This document shows, in pieces, positions 9,758 through 35,832 of a DNA stretch of 39,371 bases (positions are counted from its first letter, which is position 1; each line of letters opens with the position of its first letter). Location: NCBI GenBank assembly GCA_017620375.1, contig JAFZQN010000007.1, positions 1 through 39,371 of the forward strand, given 5' to 3'. A program made the position numbers and the translations under genes. The notes under the pieces were generated by a model. It saw nothing but the letters and a program-made list of their open reading frames with translations. It was not told the DNA's origin and did not search any database. Source of the stretch: Lachnospiraceae bacterium. GTDB lineage: Bacteria > Bacillota > Clostridia > Lachnospirales > Lachnospiraceae.

Positions 9758-11578
9758 CTATTGGATCTTTATGTACATGGCTGGTCGTACACCAATACTA
9801 TATTCACATATCCAATCCCAGTCTATATATCCATTTCCACCTACATTATAAATATGTGTGGATTTAAATCCTGGTGAACGAAGCCACCAATCTGCACTAT
9901 ATTCACCATCTGCATTTTTTGTATTATTATGACCACTCCACTGTGCTACCCTACGCGCTTTAGCGTATTTAGTAGGCGCACATCTTCTAAATATATCTTG
10001 AGATTTTTTTTCTGAATCAAACCCATATAATGGATTTGTTACATCAGAAACTGATAACAAGAAAACTTTATCGGTGGTATCGTTACCTCCTTCAACTCCA
10101 TATTCAGTATTATCAGGATTGGGCAAGAAAGTATCTTCTATTATTGTCTTATCTTCAGCACTAAAAGCCGAGTTATAAAAATCATTGTTTAGCCAACTCC
10201 TAAGCGAACTGTCCTCCCATGTATAATTTCGATTAGGATCACAATGTTGGCAATCAATAGCGTCCTCAAAATAGAGTATGGAATCTAAAACATATCTGCT
10301 AACCAATAACGCCTTTTTATTTATATTATCTACGTATAGTACTTGCCATTCTATTTGTTCTTTTCCGTCTGTAATATCATTGTCTTGCTCATAATATCCT
10401 AATTTTATTATTTCCCCGGGTTTAAGATTTTGAAAATCTCTATGTAGTTCTTCTTCCTTTTTATTATCTTCATCGTTATCAACAATTCTATCTTCAAGTT
10501 TAACATACATTGCAGGACGAACGGCCCCATAACGTTCATGATATGCATTACCTATTAAGTACCAAAATCCGTGATAAACAGATTTACTTGAAGTTCTAAA
10601 ACTTACCGAGCCCCCACTTGAAGGTACATACAATGCACTACTTTCAGAGCTTCCGGAAGTACGAAGCCACCAATCACAATAATATATCCCAGAAGGAGTA
10701 TTTCGTTCCTGTTGACTAACATTTTTGGTATTAGCATAAGCTGTAGGTTTACATTCTAAAATATCAGGTTTATTTGCATATCCAAATACAACATCATACT
10801 CTGATAACAAAAACACTTTATCCCATGTACTATTCCCATTAACATTTTCTGTTTCAGTCTGAATTATTTTCTGTTTTTCTTCACTACTAAACGCATAAGT
10901 ATAGAAATCATTATTAAGCCAATTTCTTATTGAGCTGTTTTTCCATGAAACATTCACCTGCTCATTATGATAGTCTTTAGCATCAAGACCAGACTTACTA
11001 AGAAGAAACGCTGTTTTTTCTTTTGCATCTATATTCAGAACAATCCACTCAATCGGTTCCTTCCCATTTGAAAAATTGGTATCCTGTTCATACGTTCCAA
11101 ATTTAATTATATCTCCTATTTTAATTGTATCCTGATTTATATCCTCATAAAAATTCTCATTACTATTATCGTTATTATCATCTTGTTTACTATTCAGGGT
11201 TATTTTTTTTACATCACTATATTCCCCCCATACAGTTTTGCCATTATTCTTGTTATAAGCCTTAATTTTTACTGAATACTCACCTGGATCAAGATTTTCT
11301 TCAGTAAAAGACCTCTTCTTTTTTCCACTTTTCTTTAAAGTTGTTATTTTTTTATACTTTTTTTGTCCTGGATATTTCATATAAATACGATACCCATCCA
11401 CATAAGATGTTTTCGAAATCATAATTTTAATACCAGTATCATCCGAAGTGCTTTTTAACTCAAACGATGGTTTGTTTGGGTTTTCCGCTGCTTTGGAATG
11501 CTCATAGTTAATTACACTAGAATCAAACACCATACAAATTAACAGAACCATAGTTAAAGATAGTTTTATTGTCTTCAT
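9758..11578 (-). CDS. exported protein with two DUF6273 domains
   Basis: 606 aa. A signal peptide occupies about residues 1-31 (hydrophobic LTMVLLICMVFD core). Residues about 40-130 resemble a fibronectin-III/Ig-like beta-sandwich (VDGYRIYMKYPG...). Two copies of the same ~220-residue module follow, at about 150-370 and 385-606. Each runs from IIKFGTYEQD/IIKLGYYEQD through WxVLxxD, SIRNWLNNDFY/SLRSWLNNDFY and WWLR to RPAMYVK/RPAMYIK. This is the DUF6273 pattern; its biochemical role is not established to my knowledge. SD GGGAGG is upstream. The gene is more AT-rich than the core genes around it and is the third gene of a tight operon (4-nt gap). Confidence 0.85.
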   Translation of the reverse strand: MKTIKLSLTMVLLICMVFDSSVINYEHSKAAENPNKPSFELKSTSDDTGIKIMISKTSYVDGYRIYMKYPGQKKYKKITTLKKSGKKKRSFTEENLDPGEYSVKIKAYNKNNGKTVWGEYSDVKKITLNSKQDDNNDNSNENFYEDINQDTIKIGDIIKFGTYEQDTNFSNGKEPIEWIVLNIDAKEKTAFLLSKSGLDAKDYHNEQVNVSWKNSSIRNWLNNDFYTYAFSSEEKQKIIQTETENVNGNSTWDKVFLLSEYDVVFGYANKPDILECKPTAYANTKNVSQQERNTPSGIYYCDWWLRTSGSSESSALYVPSSGGSVSFRTSSKSVYHGFWYLIGNAYHERYGAVRPAMYVKLEDRIVDNDEDNKKEEELHRDFQNLKPGEIIKLGYYEQDNDITDGKEQIEWQVLYVDNINKKALLVSRYVLDSILYFEDAIDCQHCDPNRNYTWEDSSLRSWLNNDFYNSAFSAEDKTIIEDTFLPNPDNTEYGVEGGNDTTDKVFLLSVSDVTNPLYGFDSEKKSQDIFRRCAPTKYAKARRVAQWSGHNNTKNADGEYSADWWLRSPGFKSTHIYNVGGNGYIDWDWICEYSIGVRPAMYIKIQ

Positions 11579-15086: not shown

Positions 15087-17180
15087 TCACCTTGCGAGTT
15101 TCTTAGACATCTCCGCAAGATATGCATCCGGGAACTTCTGAAGATGCATAGCCTTCTCAAGATCGAAGTCCGTAAACTCACCGTTCTGGTAAGCCACGAT
15201 CCTGTTCTTCTTGCCGGCATTGATCACCTCTACAGCCTTACCTCCCATAGCGGAAGCAAAAACTCTGTCCTGACACGAAGGAGTACCGCCGCACTGCAGG
15301 ATACCGAGCACTGTGGCTCTTGTCTCAAGACCTGTAGCAAACTGTATGTTCTTTGCAAGCGAAGCAGACTTTCCGACTGACTCCGAATTAACTATCAGAT
15401 GTAAGCGCTTGCCCAGTTTCTTCTTATTGATGATCTCAGAGATCATCCTCTGCTGGTTCTGATCATGATACTCGTTAGTGATGATCTCCTCAGCACCTGT
15501 AGCGATACCGCACCAGAGTGCATTGTGTCCGCTCTTCTTGCCGGCTACCTCTATAACGCTGCAGCGCTCATGTGAAGCAGATGTATCCCTGATCTTATCA
15601 ATAGCTTCCATAGCTGTATTAATGGCGGTATCAAAACCGATCGTATACTCGGTGCAGGCTACATCCAGATCGATAGTGGTAGGGATTCCGACCACATTTA
15701 TGCCCTTCTTGATGAGATCCAGACCGCCGCGCATGGTACCGTTTCCGCCTATGATCACAAGCACGTCGATTTTAAGCTCTTTTAATGTATCGACAGCCTT
15801 TTTCTGACCTTCCTCGGTAAGGAACTCGGGACAGTCGGATGCGAGCAGCTGTGTACCTCCGCGCTGTACTGTCTCCGACATGGTCTTGTTGGTCATTTCC
15901 AGATAATCTTTTTCGATGAGACCTGAATATCCGCGTCTGAAACCTATAACCTTCATATTGTAGCCGATAGCCGAACGCACTACCGCACGTATAGCTGCAT
16001 TCATGCCCGGTGCATCCATACCGCTGGTAAGTACTCCCACGGTAATTTTCTTGCCCTTTGCATCATCATCGTTTTCCACATCCAGAAGGCCTTCGTTCTT
16101 CATGACACGGCTGTCACCCTTACGTGTGAGCTTGCCAAGCATGTCAACAAGGAACGGATCGAGTGACTTCTTCATAGCCAGTGCTTCATCCATATCAAAG
16201 TCCACAAAAGCGCCGTTCTTATATGCCACTACTCTGTTCTCGCCGCCTTTAAGCAGGATATCCACTGCCTTTGCTCCGAATGCGGACGCAAAAACCCTGT
16301 CCTTACATGTAGGGCTGCCGCCTCTTTGCAGATATCCGAGTATGGTAGCTGTGGTGGGCATGCCTGTAGCATACTCTATACGTCTTGCCATACCTTCCGA
16401 GTCACCGATACCCTCGGCATTGATTATGATATAATGCTTTCTTCCGCTCTTACGTTTTTTCTCTATATCGTTTATAAGCTTCTGCTCTTCATAGTTATAA
16501 AGCTCTGTGGTAAGCACAGCCTCGGCACCGTTTGCAAGACCGCACCATAAAGCTATATAGCCCGCATGTCTTCCCATAACCTCAATAATGGAACATCTCT
16601 CCTGTGAGGTTGAGGTATCCCTTATCTTATCTATGGCATGCATTGCGGTATTTACAGCCGTATCGAAGCCTATGGTATACTCTGTACAGGCAATGTCCAA
16701 GTCGATGGTACCGGGTATACCTATAACATTTATCCCTCTGTCCTTTAACGCGAGACAGCCTCTGAAAGAGCCGTCACCGCCGATGACAACAAGTGCATCT
16801 ATTCCGTGCTTTTTGCATGTGGCTGCAGCGATATCCTGGCCTTCCGAGGTTATCATTTCAGGACATCTGGCTGTAAACAGGAATGTACCGCCCTTCTGTA
16901 TGGTATCTGCCACGCTTCTCGAATTAAGGTCCACGATATCCCCGTCCATAAGGCCTGAGAAACCTCTCCTTATGCCTTTTACGGCTATGCCGTTAGCTAT
17001 GGCTGTACGTACAACCGCACGGACTGCCGCGTTCATGCCGGGAGCATCTCCTCCGCTGGTCAGGACTCCGATGGTTTTGATCTTTTTCTTCGGTTCTTCC
17101 TGTTTAGTTATTCTTTTCGGTGTAACATCCTTTTTCGGTTTAGCTGTGCTGCTTTTTGCAGTTTCCTTTTTTGCTGCCAT
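15087..17180 (-). CDS. tandem-fused 6-phosphofructokinase with degenerate second half
   Basis: 697 aa: a Lys-rich 33-residue leader, a first PFK domain (about 34-365) and a second (about 378-697) homologous to it. Bacterial PfkA is normally one ~320-aa domain. Half 1 keeps the active-site set: SGGD (42-45), R105, GGDGS (134-138), PGTIDLD (156-162; general base D160), MGR (202-204) and LQRGG (R286). Gly at the GGDGS and PGTID positions suggests ATP rather than PPi. Half 2 keeps D504 and D506 but has GMD for GGD, D449 for the Arg, GGNGT, PTTID, AGK and LQCGG, so it is probably non-catalytic. Following dnaE by 62 nt without a terminator fits the common Firmicutes dnaE-pfk linkage. Strong SD GGAGG. 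Confidence 0.92.
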   Translation of the reverse strand: MAAKKETAKSSTAKPKKDVTPKRITKQEEPKKKIKTIGVLTSGGDAPGMNAAVRAVVRTAIANGIAVKGIRRGFSGLMDGDIVDLNSRSVADTIQKGGTFLFTARCPEMITSEGQDIAAATCKKHGIDALVVIGGDGSFRGCLALKDRGINVIGIPGTIDLDIACTEYTIGFDTAVNTAMHAIDKIRDTSTSQERCSIIEVMGRHAGYIALWCGLANGAEAVLTTELYNYEEQKLINDIEKKRKSGRKHYIIINAEGIGDSEGMARRIEYATGMPTTATILGYLQRGGSPTCKDRVFASAFGAKAVDILLKGGENRVVAYKNGAFVDFDMDEALAMKKSLDPFLVDMLGKLTRKGDSRVMKNEGLLDVENDDDAKGKKITVGVLTSGMDAPGMNAAIRAVVRSAIGYNMKVIGFRRGYSGLIEKDYLEMTNKTMSETVQRGGTQLLASDCPEFLTEEGQKKAVDTLKELKIDVLVIIGGNGTMRGGLDLIKKGINVVGIPTTIDLDVACTEYTIGFDTAINTAMEAIDKIRDTSASHERCSVIEVAGKKSGHNALWCGIATGAEEIITNEYHDQNQQRMISEIINKKKLGKRLHLIVNSESVGKSASLAKNIQFATGLETRATVLGILQCGGTPSCQDRVFASAMGGKAVEVINAGKKNRIVAYQNGEFTDFDLEKAMHLQKFPDAYLAEMSKKLAR

Positions 17181-22546: not shown

Positions 22547-22576
22547 AAAAAAAGGAAACCCTTTAAGAGGTTTCCC
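22547..22576 (-). terminator. intrinsic terminator after the HPr-like gene
   Basis: On the minus strand GGAAACC/GGTTTCC pair around an 8-nt loop and run directly into seven T residues, 24 nt after the stop codon. It closes the hprK-glucokinase-murB-whiA-HPr run. Confidence 0.9.
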
Positions 22577-22599: not shown

Positions 22600-22866
22600 T
22601 TATGAAAAGAATGCGGTAATTGCATCCATAGCCTCGCCCTCATCAGCGCCGTTGATCTTGATATCGATCTTCTCACGGGCTGCCGAAGCCTTGTTCATGA
22701 TGCTGATAAATGTCATCATTCCCATAATGCTCTTAGCATTAACCTTCTTGTCTTTGTACTCAAAAAATACCGAGCTGTTAAACTTGCTGGCTTCCTGAAC
22801 CAGCTTAGCGATAGGTCTTTTGTCAAGGTCAGCGGTTATGTCAATCGCCATCTTTTTTGTAATCAT
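22600..22866 (-). CDS. Crh-like HPr paralogue with Asp at position 15
   Basis: 88 aa, exactly HPr length, when started at ATG 22866; an ATG at 22878 is possible. I choose 22866 because GGAG lies 7 nt upstream and it overlaps the whiA stop as ATGA. Numbering then matches HPr: the active-site His15 is Asp15 (LDKRP for LHARP), while the HprK target Ser46 is kept (AKSIMGMM). It cannot carry the PTS His-phosphate but could be phosphorylated by HprK (encoded at 25716) and act as a CcpA co-regulator, as B. subtilis Crh does with Gln15. Being next to whiA is also the B. subtilis crh position. A normal HPr should exist elsewhere in the genome. Confidence 0.9.
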   Translation of the reverse strand: MITKKMAIDITADLDKRPIAKLVQEASKFNSSVFFEYKDKKVNAKSIMGMMTFISIMNKASAAREKIDIKINGADEGEAMDAITAFFS

Positions 22867-23819
22867 CTTTTTCTCCATTCCGTTCCGGACATACTGTGCG
22901 TTTTTTCTTCCTCCCGAAGTTTTTCCGCGATGGCCGAAATTCTCTTTAATCTGTGATTAAGCCCTGATTTTCCAACACTGTCCCCGTTATACATTACCAG
23001 TTCAGCTAAAGATGCCTCGGGATACTGTTCCCTGAGCTCCGCTGTCTCTATTAACTCCTCCGCCATACCTTCAAATCCGGTCTTTTCCCTTATATACCGG
23101 ATATCTTCCAACTGCTTGCCCGAAGCCTTAAGCGCTTTGTTGATATTTGCGGAATCACAGTTGACCTGCCTGTTTACGCGGTTTCTTAATTCCTTAAGTA
23201 TCTTTACGTTTTCCAGCTCCATCATGGCGACATGTGCTCCCATGATATTAAGCAGTTCCGAGATCATGCCGCTGTCCTTTACATATACCACATACTGCTT
23301 CTTGCGCTTTACAAGCTTTGCGTCTGCACCGAAACTGTTTATAAGATTTCTTAACTCTTCCGCAAAAGCTTCGTTATCGTGCGATATCTCAAAATGATAA
23401 TCCTTATTTGGATCGGTAAGCGATCCCGAAGCAAGAAATGCTCCTCTCAAAAACGCACGTTTGCAACAGGTCATGGTATATAAAACCGGATCCGCGGTCA
23501 ACTCACCCGATCGGAGTTTTAATGTTTCTACAATCTTTTCCGTTTCCTGTCCGGAAAGGATAATTTTCCCCGATTCTCTTCCCGAACGCTTTATATCGTA
23601 AACTGTCCGACCGAAATTGTCAACAGAAAATATTTTATTTAATAACTTTTCTGCCGTTTTTATAACCAGTTCGTTTTCTGAACTTATAACCAGATTGTGC
23701 TCTCCGGTATTATATATGCCGGCTCCGGCTATCACTCCTCCCAGTTCCGCCATCCTGCAATGCCTGGGATTGGGCAGGACGCCGCCAAGCTCCTGCTTTA
23801 CTTTTTCAGTAAAATTCAT
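22863..23819 (-). CDS. whiA: sporulation/division regulator WhiA
   Basis: 318 aa, typical. The N-terminal half is the degenerate LAGLIDADG-like fold (RAFLRGAFLASGSLTDPNKDYHFEIS), and the C-terminal part is a helix-turn-helix (LAELVMYNGDSVGKSGLNHRL). WhiA is a DNA-binding protein; in Firmicutes it affects chromosome segregation and division. Its ATG overlaps the murB stop (ATGA), and its stop overlaps the next start. The usual neighbours rapZ and yvcK, which often lie just upstream, are absent here. Confidence 0.95.
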   Translation of the reverse strand: MNFTEKVKQELGGVLPNPRHCRMAELGGVIAGAGIYNTGEHNLVISSENELVIKTAEKLLNKIFSVDNFGRTVYDIKRSGRESGKIILSGQETEKIVETLKLRSGELTADPVLYTMTCCKRAFLRGAFLASGSLTDPNKDYHFEISHDNEAFAEELRNLINSFGADAKLVKRKKQYVVYVKDSGMISELLNIMGAHVAMMELENVKILKELRNRVNRQVNCDSANINKALKASGKQLEDIRYIREKTGFEGMAEELIETAELREQYPEASLAELVMYNGDSVGKSGLNHRLKRISAIAEKLREEEKTHSMSGTEWRKR

Positions 23820-24748
23820 TCATCAAACCCCAAAAGTTTTATCTCGGGTTCAAGCTGTACTCCCGTCTTCTCATAAACAGTTGCTATAACATCACCGATA
23901 AGACTGTATATATCGGAAGAAGTCGCTTTTCCCCTGTTGATCACGAATCCGCAGTGTTTCTCGGAAACCTGTGCGTCTCCGATACGGTATCCCTTAAGAC
24001 CCGAATCCTCTATAAGCTTTCCCGCAAAATAGCCTTCGGGACGCTTAAAAGTACTGCCCGCACTCGGAAACTCCAAAGGCTGTTTCTCGCGTCTTCTTTC
24101 ATTTAGTTCCTTGATCTCTGCCTTTATGGTCTTCTCGTTTCCGCGCTTTAATATAAAGGAAACCGAAAGAACTATATAATTCTTCTGCTGGATTATGCTG
24201 CTGCGGTATCCGAACTTAAGATCAGCGTTGCTTAAGCGCACTACATTGCCATCTTCGTCAAGCACATCGGCATATTCAAGTATATCCTTGATCTCTCCGC
24301 CATACGCTCCGGCGTTCATCACTACCGCTCCGCCTATGCTCCCGGGTATGCCTGAAGCAAACTCTGTCCCCTGAAGGCCCTTTGATGCAGCCTCGGAAGA
24401 AAGCCTTGCCAAAGTACAGCCTGCATATGCGATAACCCTTATCTTATCACTCTCATCCGTATCTTTAAACACTATTTCTCCGTTAAGATCCTTGAGTGCT
24501 ATAATGACACCCTTAAACCCGTCATCGGAAACAAGCATATTTGTCCCGTTCCCGAGAACATAATACGGGATCTTATTTTCTCTTACAAAACCGATGACCG
24601 CTTTAAGCTCATCGATATCCGAAGGACGTACCAGGCAGTCTGCCGGCCCTCCTGTTCTGAACGACGTATAATCCGAAAGCTTTACCTTTTCAAATACTTT
24701 TTCCCCGCCGCAAAGCTTTTTTATCTGTCCGATAATATTCTTATCCAC
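23816..24748 (-). CDS. murB: UDP-N-acetylenolpyruvoylglucosamine reductase
   Basis: 310 aa; starts with GTG preceded by AAGGAG at 8 nt. MurB reduces the enolpyruvyl group to make UDP-MurNAc for peptidoglycan. FAD-binding and active-site motifs are SFRTGGPADCLVRP, LGNGTNMLVSD, GIPGSIGGAVVMNAGAYGGE, the catalytic Ser in AGSTFKRP, and the C-terminal Glu in LEPEIKLLG. Length and motifs fit the type II MurB of Firmicutes. Translationally coupled to whiA. Confidence 0.96.
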   Translation of the reverse strand: MDKNIIGQIKKLCGGEKVFEKVKLSDYTSFRTGGPADCLVRPSDIDELKAVIGFVRENKIPYYVLGNGTNMLVSDDGFKGVIIALKDLNGEIVFKDTDESDKIRVIAYAGCTLARLSSEAASKGLQGTEFASGIPGSIGGAVVMNAGAYGGEIKDILEYADVLDEDGNVVRLSNADLKFGYRSSIIQQKNYIVLSVSFILKRGNEKTIKAEIKELNERRREKQPLEFPSAGSTFKRPEGYFAGKLIEDSGLKGYRIGDAQVSEKHCGFVINRGKATSSDIYSLIGDVIATVYEKTGVQLEPEIKLLGFDE

Positions 24749-24765: not shown

Positions 24766-25704
24766 TTAACGGTCAACCGCAAGATAAGCCGCTCCATAAA
24801 TACCGGCATCATTTCCAAGCTCTGCAAGCTTGAACTGTGCGGTTGTCAGTACATTCATGTTGTTGCCGTTAAAATGCTTTTTAACGGTATCGGTTATGAT
24901 ATCTCCCGCTTTTGATACTCCGCCGCCTATGACATAAGCCTCGGGATCGCAGGTAGCAGCCACTCCCGAAAGAGCCTGTGCAAGATATGCGCACATGGTA
25001 TCCACAAGTCTTACCGCAGTCTCATCACCGGCCTTAGCCGCATCAAAAACGTCCTTACATGTAAGTCCTTCCTTACCTTTTATAGAGCTTGTACAAGTAT
25101 CTTTTGCAAGCTCCTTCTTTGCCATTCTTACAATTCCGGTAGCAGAAGCATACTGCTCAAGATGTCCGTGACCGCCGCATCCGCATATATCCTCTTCTTT
25201 GGGATTTACTACTATGTGGCCGATCTCTCCACCGCCGCCGTGTATGCCGCTTATGACATTTCCGTCGATGACTATTCCGCCGCCGACACCGGTTCCCAAG
25301 GTAATAAATACCAGATTTTTAAAGCCTTTTCCGCCGCCCTTCCACAGCTCGCCCAAAGCTGCGGCATTTGCATCATTTACTGCTTTGCACTTAAAACCGG
25401 TAAGCGAAGTCATCTTTTCATTAACATTGAATATACCCCATCCGAGATTAGCACATTTCATTACCGTTCCGTCGGGAGTGACAGGCCCGGGTACTCCTAC
25501 ACCCGCTCCTGTGACATCTTCTTTTGCAATGCCTTTTTCCGTACACTTTTTCTCTATAGCATCAGCTATATCCTGAGGTACGTTTTCTCCGCCGTTCTCA
25601 CGTCTGGTAGTGATCTCCCACTTATCAAGAAGTTCACCTTCCGATGTGAACAGACCCATTTTAATGGTCGTTCCGCCTATGTCTACTCCAAAACAATATT
25701 TCAT
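24766..25704 (-). CDS. ROK-family glucokinase
   Basis: About 312 aa from ATG 25704 (MKYCFGVD). AAAGGTG lies 6 nt upstream of that ATG; the ATG at 25722 has a poor SD and overlaps hprK. ASKHA sugar kinase: DIGGTTIKMGL phosphate loop, NDANAAALGE with the catalytic Asp, GTGVGGGIVIDG, and the ROK metal motif ending GHIV...CGCGGHGHLEQ. The last metal ligand, usually Cys (CGxxGC), is His here. It probably phosphorylates glucose with ATP to feed glycolysis; N-acetyl sugars cannot be excluded. Lying directly after hprK couples it to catabolite signalling. Confidence 0.88.
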   Translation of the reverse strand: MKYCFGVDIGGTTIKMGLFTSEGELLDKWEITTRRENGGENVPQDIADAIEKKCTEKGIAKEDVTGAGVGVPGPVTPDGTVMKCANLGWGIFNVNEKMTSLTGFKCKAVNDANAAALGELWKGGGKGFKNLVFITLGTGVGGGIVIDGNVISGIHGGGGEIGHIVVNPKEEDICGCGGHGHLEQYASATGIVRMAKKELAKDTCTSSIKGKEGLTCKDVFDAAKAGDETAVRLVDTMCAYLAQALSGVAATCDPEAYVIGGGVSKAGDIITDTVKKHFNGNNMNVLTTAQFKLAELGNDAGIYGAAYLAVDR

Positions 25705-25715
25705 ATCCGTCACCT

Positions 25716-26663
25716 TTACCATTCTTTTATTTCAGGTTTAACACCGTTGATATTTGCTATAGCTCTTTCGTAAAGAGTCTGAGCCGCATTGTAACCCATC
25801 TTCTTCTGTCTGCAGTTTACAGCTGCTGCCTCGCATATGATCGCAAGGTTTCTGCCGGGTCTTATCGGGATATTGTGGCATACGACATTGTTGCCGAGGT
25901 AGTTGACATAATGCTCCTCAAGGCCCATGCGGTCATATTCCTTCTCTCTGTCCCAATCCTCTAAGTTGATGACAAGATCGATGGTACCGGTATTCTTAAC
26001 ACTTTCAACACCAAACAGGGTTTTTACATCTATGATGCCTATACCTCGCAGCTCTATAAAATGCCTTGTCATCTCAGGAGAAGTACCTACAAGCGTATCA
26101 TCGCTTACCTTCTTTATCTCTACGACATCATCGCTTATAAGACGATGTCCTCTCTTTATAAGCTCAAGTGCAGCCTCGGATTTACCGATACCGCTCTCAC
26201 CCGTGATAAGGATTCCTTCACCGTATACATCTACAAGTACTCCGTGTATGGTCATGGTCGGTGCCAGCTCGACGTTCAGCCATCTGATGACCTCAGCCAT
26301 AAGTGAGGATGTGGTCTTGCCTGTCCTCAAGATAGGCACCTGATACTTTATCGCGGTATCGATAAGCGACTGCTCAAGTTCAAAGCCGTTGCAAAGGATA
26401 ACGCAGGGGATACCGCTTGAAAGGAAACGCTCATATATCTCAGCCCTGTTTGTCTGTCTCAAGAGATAGGAATGCTCTACGTTTCCGATTATCTGGATCC
26501 TCTCATTATCGAAATCCTCCATGAATCCCGCAAGCTGGAGTGCAGGCCTGTTGATATCGGGTTTATTGATAAATATATTCCCCGTATCAATCTCGGGAGT
26601 ACAGTTTTCCAGTTTCATTTTTTCAACCAGTTTTGATAAAACTACGGAATACTCATCATTCAT
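25716..26663 (-). CDS. hprK: HPr kinase/phosphorylase
   Basis: 315 aa. HprK phosphorylates Ser46 of HPr/Crh in response to glycolytic intermediates and removes it when phosphate is high. The C-terminal catalytic part has Walker A GESGIGKS at 155-162, ISDDVVEI, the HprK signature LRGIGIIDVKTLFG, and RPGRNLAIICE; the N-terminal domain is the usual ~130-residue Mur-like fold. SD AGGAGAG. The potential Crh-like target is five genes on in the same run. Confidence 0.97.
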   Translation of the reverse strand: MNDEYSVVLSKLVEKMKLENCTPEIDTGNIFINKPDINRPALQLAGFMEDFDNERIQIIGNVEHSYLLRQTNRAEIYERFLSSGIPCVILCNGFELEQSLIDTAIKYQVPILRTGKTTSSLMAEVIRWLNVELAPTMTIHGVLVDVYGEGILITGESGIGKSEAALELIKRGHRLISDDVVEIKKVSDDTLVGTSPEMTRHFIELRGIGIIDVKTLFGVESVKNTGTIDLVINLEDWDREKEYDRMGLEEHYVNYLGNNVVCHNIPIRPGRNLAIICEAAAVNCRQKKMGYNAAQTLYERAIANINGVKPEIKEW

Positions 26664-33763: not shown

Positions 33764-35809
33764 TTATCCTCTGTTATATTTATTCTTATGCTTATGTTTT
33801 CCTTTATAAACCTCTGTAATACCGCTTGAGAGCCCGAGTTCCTCGTCTTCACGTCTGCGGTTCATGAAATAGATGAAATTATCTATCGCATTCAATATAT
33901 CGGCAAACTCCTCACGCGGAGCCTCCTCGATATATCTCATAAGGATCTCATTTTCATCCTCTCCCTTATAACGACCGTAAAAGATATCAAACAGGTTGTG
34001 CCCGCGCATATAGATCTTTATGGTCTCCATATTGCGCTTTAAGTCCTCTTTGGACTTAACCACCAGTCCCGTTACCTCCCTCATACGGCGCGCACTCGGA
34101 AGCCTGTACAAATAGTTCTTGAACTTTGAAAGAAGGATATTGTAAAAATCCTCTTCCGTTTTGATGACACCTATTTTAGCCATGATCTTGGGATTTAAGA
34201 AGTAATTCTCAAACGAATAATACTTAAGTACCAGCACGTTTTTACGTGTGATCCTGGGTATATTCTGAGGATCCTCCTTGGCTCTGTCACTGTAGTATGA
34301 ACAGAGCTGTTTTACCAATGTCTCGGGTTTCTTTCCGTCACTGTCACGTATCATCAGGAACTGATCCTTAAGATACAGCTGATTGATATATTTCAGATTG
34401 GCATAGGTCTTTATGTTTGTACAGCTGTTTGTCGTAATGATGGATATCCTCTGTAAGGTTCCGTCATCGTTATATACCTCGGAATAGTACTTCTTAAGAA
34501 GCAACGGCAGTCTGTTGCTGTCCTGCTTGCCTTCCACGATGAATACAAAATTGACATTCATCACATCTCCGGCAGAGTATCCGAGATCGTCCAGTATCTT
34601 GTTTATATCCGTGTTGTCCGATATCGTGGTGTTATAGTCCTTATCCAGGACTACCTGATTGATCTGTGAGGACTTAAAGTTAAAGATCATATTCGGAGAA
34701 TGCGTCGAGAATATAACCTGATTCTTCTTTGAAAGCCTGTACAGTATCTCACTTGCCGTCTTTTGCAGCTGCGGATGCAGGTATATCTCGGGATCCTCTA
34801 TCATGATGATACTGGAGATATTACTGTTTTCATCTACATATGCCTCAAGCAGCGACAAAATATAGATGCTCTTTGCACCGGCACTTAACGTTTCTACCGA
34901 ATCCGCACCGTAATGGTCCTTCTGCATGACCACGGTATCCATGGTAAACAGCTCTTTGGTATTAAGCTTTACCATAAATTCGATATCCTGTTTCCTGCCA
35001 CTGTTTCTGATATAATAATTATTGAGCCTCTCTATAAACTCATCCATATTAAGCTGTCCGAGTTTATACTCTAAGAGCTTGGTAGTCTCTAATATAGAGA
35101 GGTCTTCAGGCTTTTTGTCCAGTATCCCGGGTATACACCTGAAGCATCTGGTACAAGGCCTTGATTCATCATACATACAGATGGTATCCTTGACCTTTTT
35201 CAAGGCCGATTTTGTCTGCACGTTAAATATACTGTCCTGGATCTCGCGGACATTTCTGGTCACATCAAAAAAATATACCTTCGGAAATATCTTCTTAAGA
35301 CTTGGATTATTCTTATTGATACCGTCGGAATACCTTACGGAAAGGTCCGTATCCACAACAAATGAAAACGAAAGAAGTCCGCCGTACTCCGAAGGATTGA
35401 TATCGGTTTCGGGGCTGAACATCTCCTCCAATATCTCAGCCTGGTCTTCCTGTTCGTACGAGTCGGAATCAGGCTCCCTGCCGCCTCTCACAAAGGTCGG
35501 AAGCTGGGTGCAGAAATCCTCATACCACATATCAAAGCTCTTATACTTGCTTATCTTTCCCTTGGAATGCATCTCAAGTATATCAGCATTTGTGATCTCA
35601 AGATTGACCGCTATCTCGATATTCCTGTTGGGATCGTTAAAATCGGTTGCCTTGACGGCATATTCGCCTGCTACGGCAAGTATGGCTTTTAAGATCGTGG
35701 TCTTACCTGTACTGTTTTTTCCGACGATGATGAAAGCACTCTCAATATTGTCGATGTTCAATTCCCTGATAGTCTTAAAATTTCTTATCAGAATGGAACT
35801 TATCTTCAT
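33764..35809 (-). CDS. OLD-family ATP-dependent endonuclease
   Basis: About 681 aa from ATG 35809 (MKISSILIRNFKTI); a GTG four codons upstream is possible. An ABC/SMC-like ATPase has Walker A GKNSTGKT (30-37), the signature-like LSAGAKSIYILSLLEAY, Walker B IIMIEDPEIYLHP and STHSPN. A C-terminal TOPRIM nuclease domain follows, with VEGKQD and RDSDGK as metal-binding acids. This is the OLD layout; relatives degrade DNA and several act in phage defence. A CX7CX2CX2C motif (C211, C219, C222, C225), which could bind metal, is inserted in the ATPase lobe. It lies between an exported LRR protein and GH51; no GajB-type helicase or other defence gene is adjacent. Confidence 0.88.
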   Translation of the reverse strand: MKISSILIRNFKTIRELNIDNIESAFIIVGKNSTGKTTILKAILAVAGEYAVKATDFNDPNRNIEIAVNLEITNADILEMHSKGKISKYKSFDMWYEDFCTQLPTFVRGGREPDSDSYEQEDQAEILEEMFSPETDINPSEYGGLLSFSFVVDTDLSVRYSDGINKNNPSLKKIFPKVYFFDVTRNVREIQDSIFNVQTKSALKKVKDTICMYDESRPCTRCFRCIPGILDKKPEDLSILETTKLLEYKLGQLNMDEFIERLNNYYIRNSGRKQDIEFMVKLNTKELFTMDTVVMQKDHYGADSVETLSAGAKSIYILSLLEAYVDENSNISSIIMIEDPEIYLHPQLQKTASEILYRLSKKNQVIFSTHSPNMIFNFKSSQINQVVLDKDYNTTISDNTDINKILDDLGYSAGDVMNVNFVFIVEGKQDSNRLPLLLKKYYSEVYNDDGTLQRISIITTNSCTNIKTYANLKYINQLYLKDQFLMIRDSDGKKPETLVKQLCSYYSDRAKEDPQNIPRITRKNVLVLKYYSFENYFLNPKIMAKIGVIKTEEDFYNILLSKFKNYLYRLPSARRMREVTGLVVKSKEDLKRNMETIKIYMRGHNLFDIFYGRYKGEDENEILMRYIEEAPREEFADILNAIDNFIYFMNRRREDEELGLSSGITEVYKGKHKHKNKYNRG

Positions 35810-35832
35810 AAGGTTACCCACCCCCCGGTAAT

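Follow-up and report, generated by a model that had tools for sequence, protein, structure and literature searches.

Crh of Bacillus subtilis and HPr (PtsH) of the firmicutes are the closest described counterparts of the protein considered here. Crh, of which methylglyoxal synthase is a partner, is an HPr-domain protein without His15; an earlier note on this DNA gave glutamine as its residue 15, and this is indeed visible in the Crh sequence of our PDB match. In the excerpts of the literature available, the B. subtilis operon has the order glmR-whiA-crh (PMC10714963), and Crh of Parageobacillus thermoglucosidasius also has glutamine at residue 15 (PMC9631020).

An acid at residue 15 has been described in engineered proteins. 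The accessible part of PMC3526391 reports that HPr His15Asp was built as a phosphomimetic in T. saccharolyticum and that catabolite repression was thereby relieved; the same text cites a loss of >96% of PTS activity in Listeria carrying His15Ala or His15Asp, and its reference list includes kinetic work on the H15D and H15E forms of HPr with HprK. Acids in HPr partners repel phospho-His15, and the structure of H15D has been solved (1CM3), according to an excerpt of PMC6763467. The protein described below has the same residue 15 as the three His15Asp proteins (T. saccharolyticum, Listeria, and 1CM3), and likewise keeps Ser46; however, those are, as the excerpts describe them, laboratory mutants of a PTS HPr, whereas here the acid is natural and is the rule in a bacterial family. 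In the open-access listings searched, which mostly leave subscription papers outside, neither a naturally occurring acid-15 HPr nor a division of the two sites between proteins is described, and the accessible portions of PMC4591507 and PMC8730811 do not address residue 15 in any acid-15 protein.

Results

The acid-15 HPr gene and its neighbors

The window, by which we mean the whole 39,371-nucleotide stretch of Lachnospiraceae DNA that was analyzed, encodes an 88 amino acid HPr-domain protein on its minus strand (22600..22866; PF00381, open reading frame, and alignment A2) with Asp15, Arg17, Pro18, and Ser46. The earlier note named no strand, and the plus-strand reading of 22600-22866 reaches a stop at codon 2. 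A longer frame, 22600-22878 on the minus strand, would give 92 amino acids, but the ATG at 22878 is an unlikely start, as locus L356 carries Met where the ATGA lies and lacks one four codons earlier. With numbering from the ATGA, codon 15 reads GAC (22822..22824, minus strand), that is, Asp where the PTS histidine is expected, and codon 46 is AGC (22729..22731, minus strand), the HprK-type serine in NAKSIMGMM; both residues thus read as the earlier note had them. The protein belongs to the HPr domain family by its scores of 69.5 bits with PF00381 (cut-off 23) and 60.2 with TIGR01003 (cut-off 47.9). In alignment A2, the window protein, L351, L352, L356, and genome G134 have six additional residues after position 53, past the Ser46 helix, which are absent from the 16 other members.

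The gene lies directly after whiA (22863..23819, minus strand; PF02650 and PF14527), with which it shares an ATGA overlap (22863-22866). Farther upstream on the same strand are an open reading frame that overlaps whiA by four bases and that, from its sequence, we take to be murB (23816..24748), a ROK-family glucokinase (24766..25722; TIGR00744 277.3 bits, cut-off 260.35), and hprK, encoding HPr kinase/phosphorylase (25716..26663; PF07475 236.5 bits, PF02603 135.9 bits). The genes of this run overlap or have short gaps, and hprK is the fourth upstream of the HPr-like gene. Among the best 80 named loci, 65 have at least 5 kb upstream; a murB homolog is upstream of whiA in all 65, and 34 have hprK no more than 4 kb away in the same orientation, 25 of them with an intervening ROK gene. 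Roseburia inulinivorans DSM 16841 (L353), for example, combines hprK, whiA, and a Glu15 HPr. In the window, the HPr gene is directly followed by a terminator-like hairpin with a T run (22553..22576, minus strand; consensus match, fold z-score -2.02). Six such consensus sites were seen in the region versus 4.3 expected, and the inverted-repeat search at the settings used reported none at 22553..22576; the hairpin is only a probable operon end. The HPr-domain sequence, the lack of His15, Ser46 within NAKSIMG, and the position directly after whiA are all as in B. subtilis Crh; a difference is that in the window hprK and the glucokinase are in the same run. The ORFs and domain matches bear out the earlier description of a Crh-like protein that lacks His15, keeps Ser46, and is encoded beside whiA with hprK in the same run.

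The window genome (G000; 2.5 Mb in 152 contigs, 85.9% complete) has as its nearest named records, among the best 80 named loci, two Lachnospiraceae MAGs, RUG11977 (L351, WhiA 99%) and the goat-omasum RGIG2768 (L352, WhiA 91%). The HPr DNA of L351 is identical to that of the window, and the two may come from the same organism. Between the window and L352, the HPr gene has 11 synonymous differences and one non-synonymous difference; the resulting dN/dS of 0.018 indicates that the gene is constrained. The earlier note had raised the possibility of a sequencing error at codon 15, to be recognized by His15 in close relatives. Instead, Asp15 is common to L351, L352, and L356 (another MAG), while the congener G134 has Glu15 and His17; with Asp15 in three other assemblies, an error is unlikely.

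Elsewhere in the window, the minus strand encodes a phosphofructokinase of 697 amino acids, with two PFK domains in tandem fusion (15087-17180), the C-terminal half of which has altered motifs (GGNGTMRG and AGKKSG) and recalls eukaryotic PFK. L352 shares the fusion. Of the other named loci, 14 carry a PFK ORF of single length, and in one more, L373 (Anaerocolumna sp.), the ORF is truncated where the locus stops. A 606 amino acid protein (9758-11578, minus strand) has a signal-like start and two DUF6273 stretches. The minus strand also carries a phage-type integrase near the contig end (38156-39352) and an AAA_15 ATPase (33764-35821), which together are perhaps a mobile or defense region.

PTS components, HprK, and CcpA

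A canonical HPr elsewhere in the genome, which the earlier note had suggested looking for, did not turn up. PF00381 matches the window genome in two places, the window gene and a 77 amino acid protein (L002:1492-1725; G000:C58) that keeps KSIMG and in which the residue-15 segment is missing; the gene beside this short form is presumably thiI. Neither the N-terminal (PF05524) nor the C-terminal (PF02896) enzyme I model found a match in this 85.9%-complete genome, where an assembly gap is possible; controls were matched. Among the matches listed for G134, which is 99% complete, there is none to PF05524 and two to PF00381, the second of which begins at model position 19; no full-length His15 HPr was found in either genome, including among the matches listed. 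With neither enzyme I nor a full-length His15 HPr found in the genus, Asp15 is left without a known PTS donor, bearing in mind that the window genome is incomplete. For the same reason, the PTS-domain regulators and the assay with PEP and enzyme I that the earlier note proposed are not a natural setting here. The window protein resembles firmicute HPr in its domain, in Arg17-Pro18, in the Ser46 region, and in its presumed kinase HprK, but Asp replaces His15, and thus no phosphocarrier role is expected.

Among the matches listed, to which all counts in this paragraph refer, HprK (PF07475) was found in 193 of the 200 family genomes surveyed; G165, 91% complete, has no HprK match, yet it keeps a Glu15/Ser46 protein. 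Most genomes match the HprK C-domain model once, the window genome five times. The cut-off of the CcpA model (TIGR01481) was passed by none of the 200 family genomes and by two of 14 controls, the best score in the family being 267 where 442 is required. Some match to the CcpA model was present in 193 of the 200. The seven with none at E 0.001 comprise four with an acid-15 protein (G050, G072, G113, and G130), one each with Cys (G123) and Thr (G146), and one without a linked HPr (G169). The window genome has five CcpA-model matches, the best at E 1.1e-39, and those of G134 are weak (best 3.7e-18). The cut-off of TIGR01481 may be too strict for clostridia, and the family may have a diverged clostridial CcpA; as a partner of the window protein, CcpA is doubtful.

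Residue 15 within and outside the family

Two hundred Lachnospiraceae genomes from 199 genera were surveyed, and a whiA-linked HPr was read in 165, counting the first protein per genome. No HPr was present in 19 of the 160 whiA stretches that were fetched, with some stretches stopping at contig ends; in the other genomes without a linked HPr, WhiA was lacking, the stretch was not retrieved, or linkage was not callable. The survey of residue 15 among whiA-linked homologs that the earlier note had called for gave Glu in 134 and Asp in 19, i.e., an acid in 153 of 165, whereas none had His; the remainder were Gln (three), Gly (three), Ala (two), and Asn, Ser, Cys, and Thr (one each). The residue reported for the window protein was thus correct, but it is not peculiar to this genome. 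Ser46 is present in all 165, Arg17 in 140, and Pro18 in 152. By parsimony, 12 changes between Asp and not-Asp account for the 19 Asp tips; Glu and Asp interchange, and the charge stays. The 12 proteins with a non-acid residue are scattered tips. The best 80 named loci, which are not independent of the 200-genome sample since the two overlap, include Roseburia, Blautia, Butyrivibrio, Coprococcus, Fusicatenibacter, Anaerocolumna, and Robinsoniella; 76 hold a whiA-linked HPr (Glu in 60, Asp in 15, and Gly in one), always with Ser46. That His15 was lost merely because enzyme I was lost is rejected, as the acid is present in 140 of 149 linked proteins of genomes that have enzyme I among the matches listed.

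From 194 class genomes with WhiA among the matches listed, 90 whiA regions were read; an HPr was present in 21 regions, of which three are from Lachnospiraceae. Residue 15 in the 18 outside the family is His in six, Gln in five, and Asp, Asn, Tyr, Thr, Ser, Lys, and Arg in one each, all with Ser46. The lone acid belongs to the same order as Lachnospiraceae. With an acid in 1 of 18, a class-wide trait of whiA-linked HPr is rejected. On these sequences, whiA-linked HPr is often without His15, and the acid is a mark of Lachnospiraceae.

A tree was built from 80 columns and 269 proteins, leaving out duplicates and proteins with >12 gap columns. One group contains all 167 whiA-linked proteins of the family and six further proteins, the two branches next to the root having support of 0.594 and 0.905. 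The family's His15 proteins without Ser46 form a separate clade of 55 plus two others (support 0.936). A grouping with Bacillus Crh was not supported, as Crh falls elsewhere with other HPrs, although 80 columns are too few to settle the point. Against the PDB, a typical Glu15 member scored 83.5 bits with Crh, 79.6 with the HPr-related 3le1, and 70.1 with HPr (1kkl); Crh is also the top match of the window protein, at 48.7 versus 47.6 for an HPr, a margin of 1 bit. PRK13782 (NCBIfam), which we take to be the Crh model, is the best of the HPr models for the window protein, but its score of 70.6 is below the cut-off of 123. The window protein has Asp, and the family usually Glu or Asp, where B. 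subtilis Crh has Gln15, a residue found in only 3 of the 165 family members. The window genome also differs from the Crh setting in having, among the matches listed, no enzyme I match and no CcpA above the cut-off. Because residue 15, the PRK13782 score, and the tree grouping all depart from Crh, we did not file the protein as Crh, though it is most likely Crh-like in its working.

Distribution of the two phosphosites

Residue 46 was compared in 251 family proteins with a readable residue 15. Ser46 is present in all 160 acid-15 proteins, whereas only 19 of 74 His15 proteins have it; the other 55 have a different residue, Arg or Lys in 44. This first His15 set consisted of the best Pfam scores, and the comparison was therefore repeated on 30 further genomes at their enzyme I loci. 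In 17 of these loci an HPr lies no more than 1.5 kb from enzyme I, always with His15 and in 13 cases without Ser46; the remaining 13 have none there. No probability from a Fisher test is given because the proteins are related. A further kind of HPr, with HLRP, His15, and Ser46, makes up 12 of the 19 His15/Ser46 cases; with this kind left out, 46 of the 51 genomes that have enzyme I, and in which both proteins were read, show the division. Within the family, the two HPr phosphosites tend to be carried by separate proteins, and the division is incomplete. The HLRP kind was seen in L030, L034, L038, L040, L016, and L017, where GLHLRPAG is combined with KSVLSVLGA or KSVLNVMAA and His15 and Ser46 are both kept.

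Among the matches listed, to which the counts in this paragraph refer, PF05524 is present in 177 of the 200 family genomes and absent from 23. Fifteen of the 23 are at least 90% complete, and none of the full-length HPrs read in them has His15. A whiA-linked acid-15 protein occurs in 11 of the 15; residue 15 is Ala in G097 and Gly in G108. In G004, one protein with Asp15 and one with Gln15 were read, neither seen beside whiA, and G044 has only a short HPr form and is without HprK, WhiA, and full-length HPr together. Four of the eight less complete genomes have a His15 protein (G020, G023, G137, and G174), and their enzyme I may lie in an assembly gap. Overall, the acid is kept in 13 of 16 linked proteins of genomes without enzyme I; exclusion from the PTS is therefore not sufficient by itself to explain it, and a second role or a recent loss of enzyme I is needed. 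PF00381 matches that start at model position 17 or later, and hence are without residue 15, were seen in 19 of the 23 genomes, and few of these were read.

Discussion

Our main reading, to which we assign a probability of about 60%, is that the acid-15 protein is a dedicated regulatory HPr switched by HprK, in which the acid excludes the PTS and probably mimics His15~P, and whose partners are other than classical CcpA. Its sequence gives good support to a regulatory HPr of the HprK type rather than a phosphocarrier; that the acid permanently mimics His~P is a good guess. HprK from the same run would phosphorylate and dephosphorylate Ser46 in response to energy and sugar-phosphate status, and the Ser46-phosphorylated protein would act on effectors. 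Carrying no PTS phosphate, the protein would be kept outside the PTS relay by its fixed acid, which would probably give it the permanent look of His15-phosphorylated HPr, such that partners needing an uncharged His15 would not bind; the Ser46 switch would then work via partners different from classical CcpA. In the family as a whole, Ser46 signaling would fall to the acid-15 protein and the His15 function to separate PTS HPrs, mostly without Ser46. The interpretation given in the earlier note, taken as a whole, is partly supported.

Only tentatively, and with the odds somewhat against it, do we extend this to the family as a divided system: a His15 carrier, usually with Arg or Lys at residue 46, and a Ser46 signaler, the acid of which would have evolved as a permanent mimic of His15~P. 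HprK would then control carbon use through effectors other than CcpA, and lineages without a PTS would keep the signaling half.

Residue 15 is at the start of helix A in HPr, and the acid might simply stabilize the beginning of this helix or pair with Arg17, having no signaling meaning and leaving the protein an HprK substrate. Retention of Arg17 in 132 of the 153 acid-15 proteins is consistent with such a structural role, but in the other 21 Arg17 is replaced (by Thr in 10, and by His in G134) and the acid is not lost, and the His15 HPrs of the family manage without it; we consider this explanation somewhat unlikely. That the protein is a working phosphocarrier, Asp15 or Glu15 taking the phosphate of enzyme I as an acyl phosphate, is very improbable. 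Engineered acid substitutions in E. coli HPr reportedly retain some phosphotransfer, and most family genomes have PF05524 (177 of 200 among the matches listed). However, on that same basis neither the window genome nor G134 has a PF05524 match, and 13 of 16 linked proteins keep the acid in genomes without enzyme I; moreover, all 17 HPrs within 1.5 kb of enzyme I have His15, and the Listeria His15Ala and His15Asp mutants cited in the excerpt of PMC3526391 lost nearly all of their PTS activity.

Another alternative is an ordinary Crh function, in which the Ser46~P protein would co-repress with a CcpA-like LacI regulator and the acid would be just one among several residues tolerated after His15 had become free to change. 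Crh provides the top-scoring solved structures, whiA is adjacent as in the B. subtilis operon (PMC10714963, in excerpt), 17 of the 18 whiA-linked HPrs outside the family have Gln, Asn, Tyr, His, Thr, Ser, Lys, or Arg at residue 15, and 193 of the 200 family genomes have some CcpA-model match among those listed. An acid in 93% within the family would, however, not be expected if any residue were tolerated. Furthermore, among the matches listed, the CcpA cut-off was passed by none of the 200 genomes, four of the seven genomes without a CcpA-model match have an acid-15 protein, and the congener G134 has only weak matches (best 3.7e-18). A plain Crh function is thus unlikely in our judgment.

Lachnospiraceae make up a large share of the gut and rumen flora, and their choice among sugars seems little studied. 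If the main reading, a regulatory HPr switched by HprK, is true, the acid-15 protein would be the output of HprK in Lachnospiraceae, and its binding partners could be fished for directly; it would also be a natural counterpart to a phosphomimetic that had previously been made by mutation.
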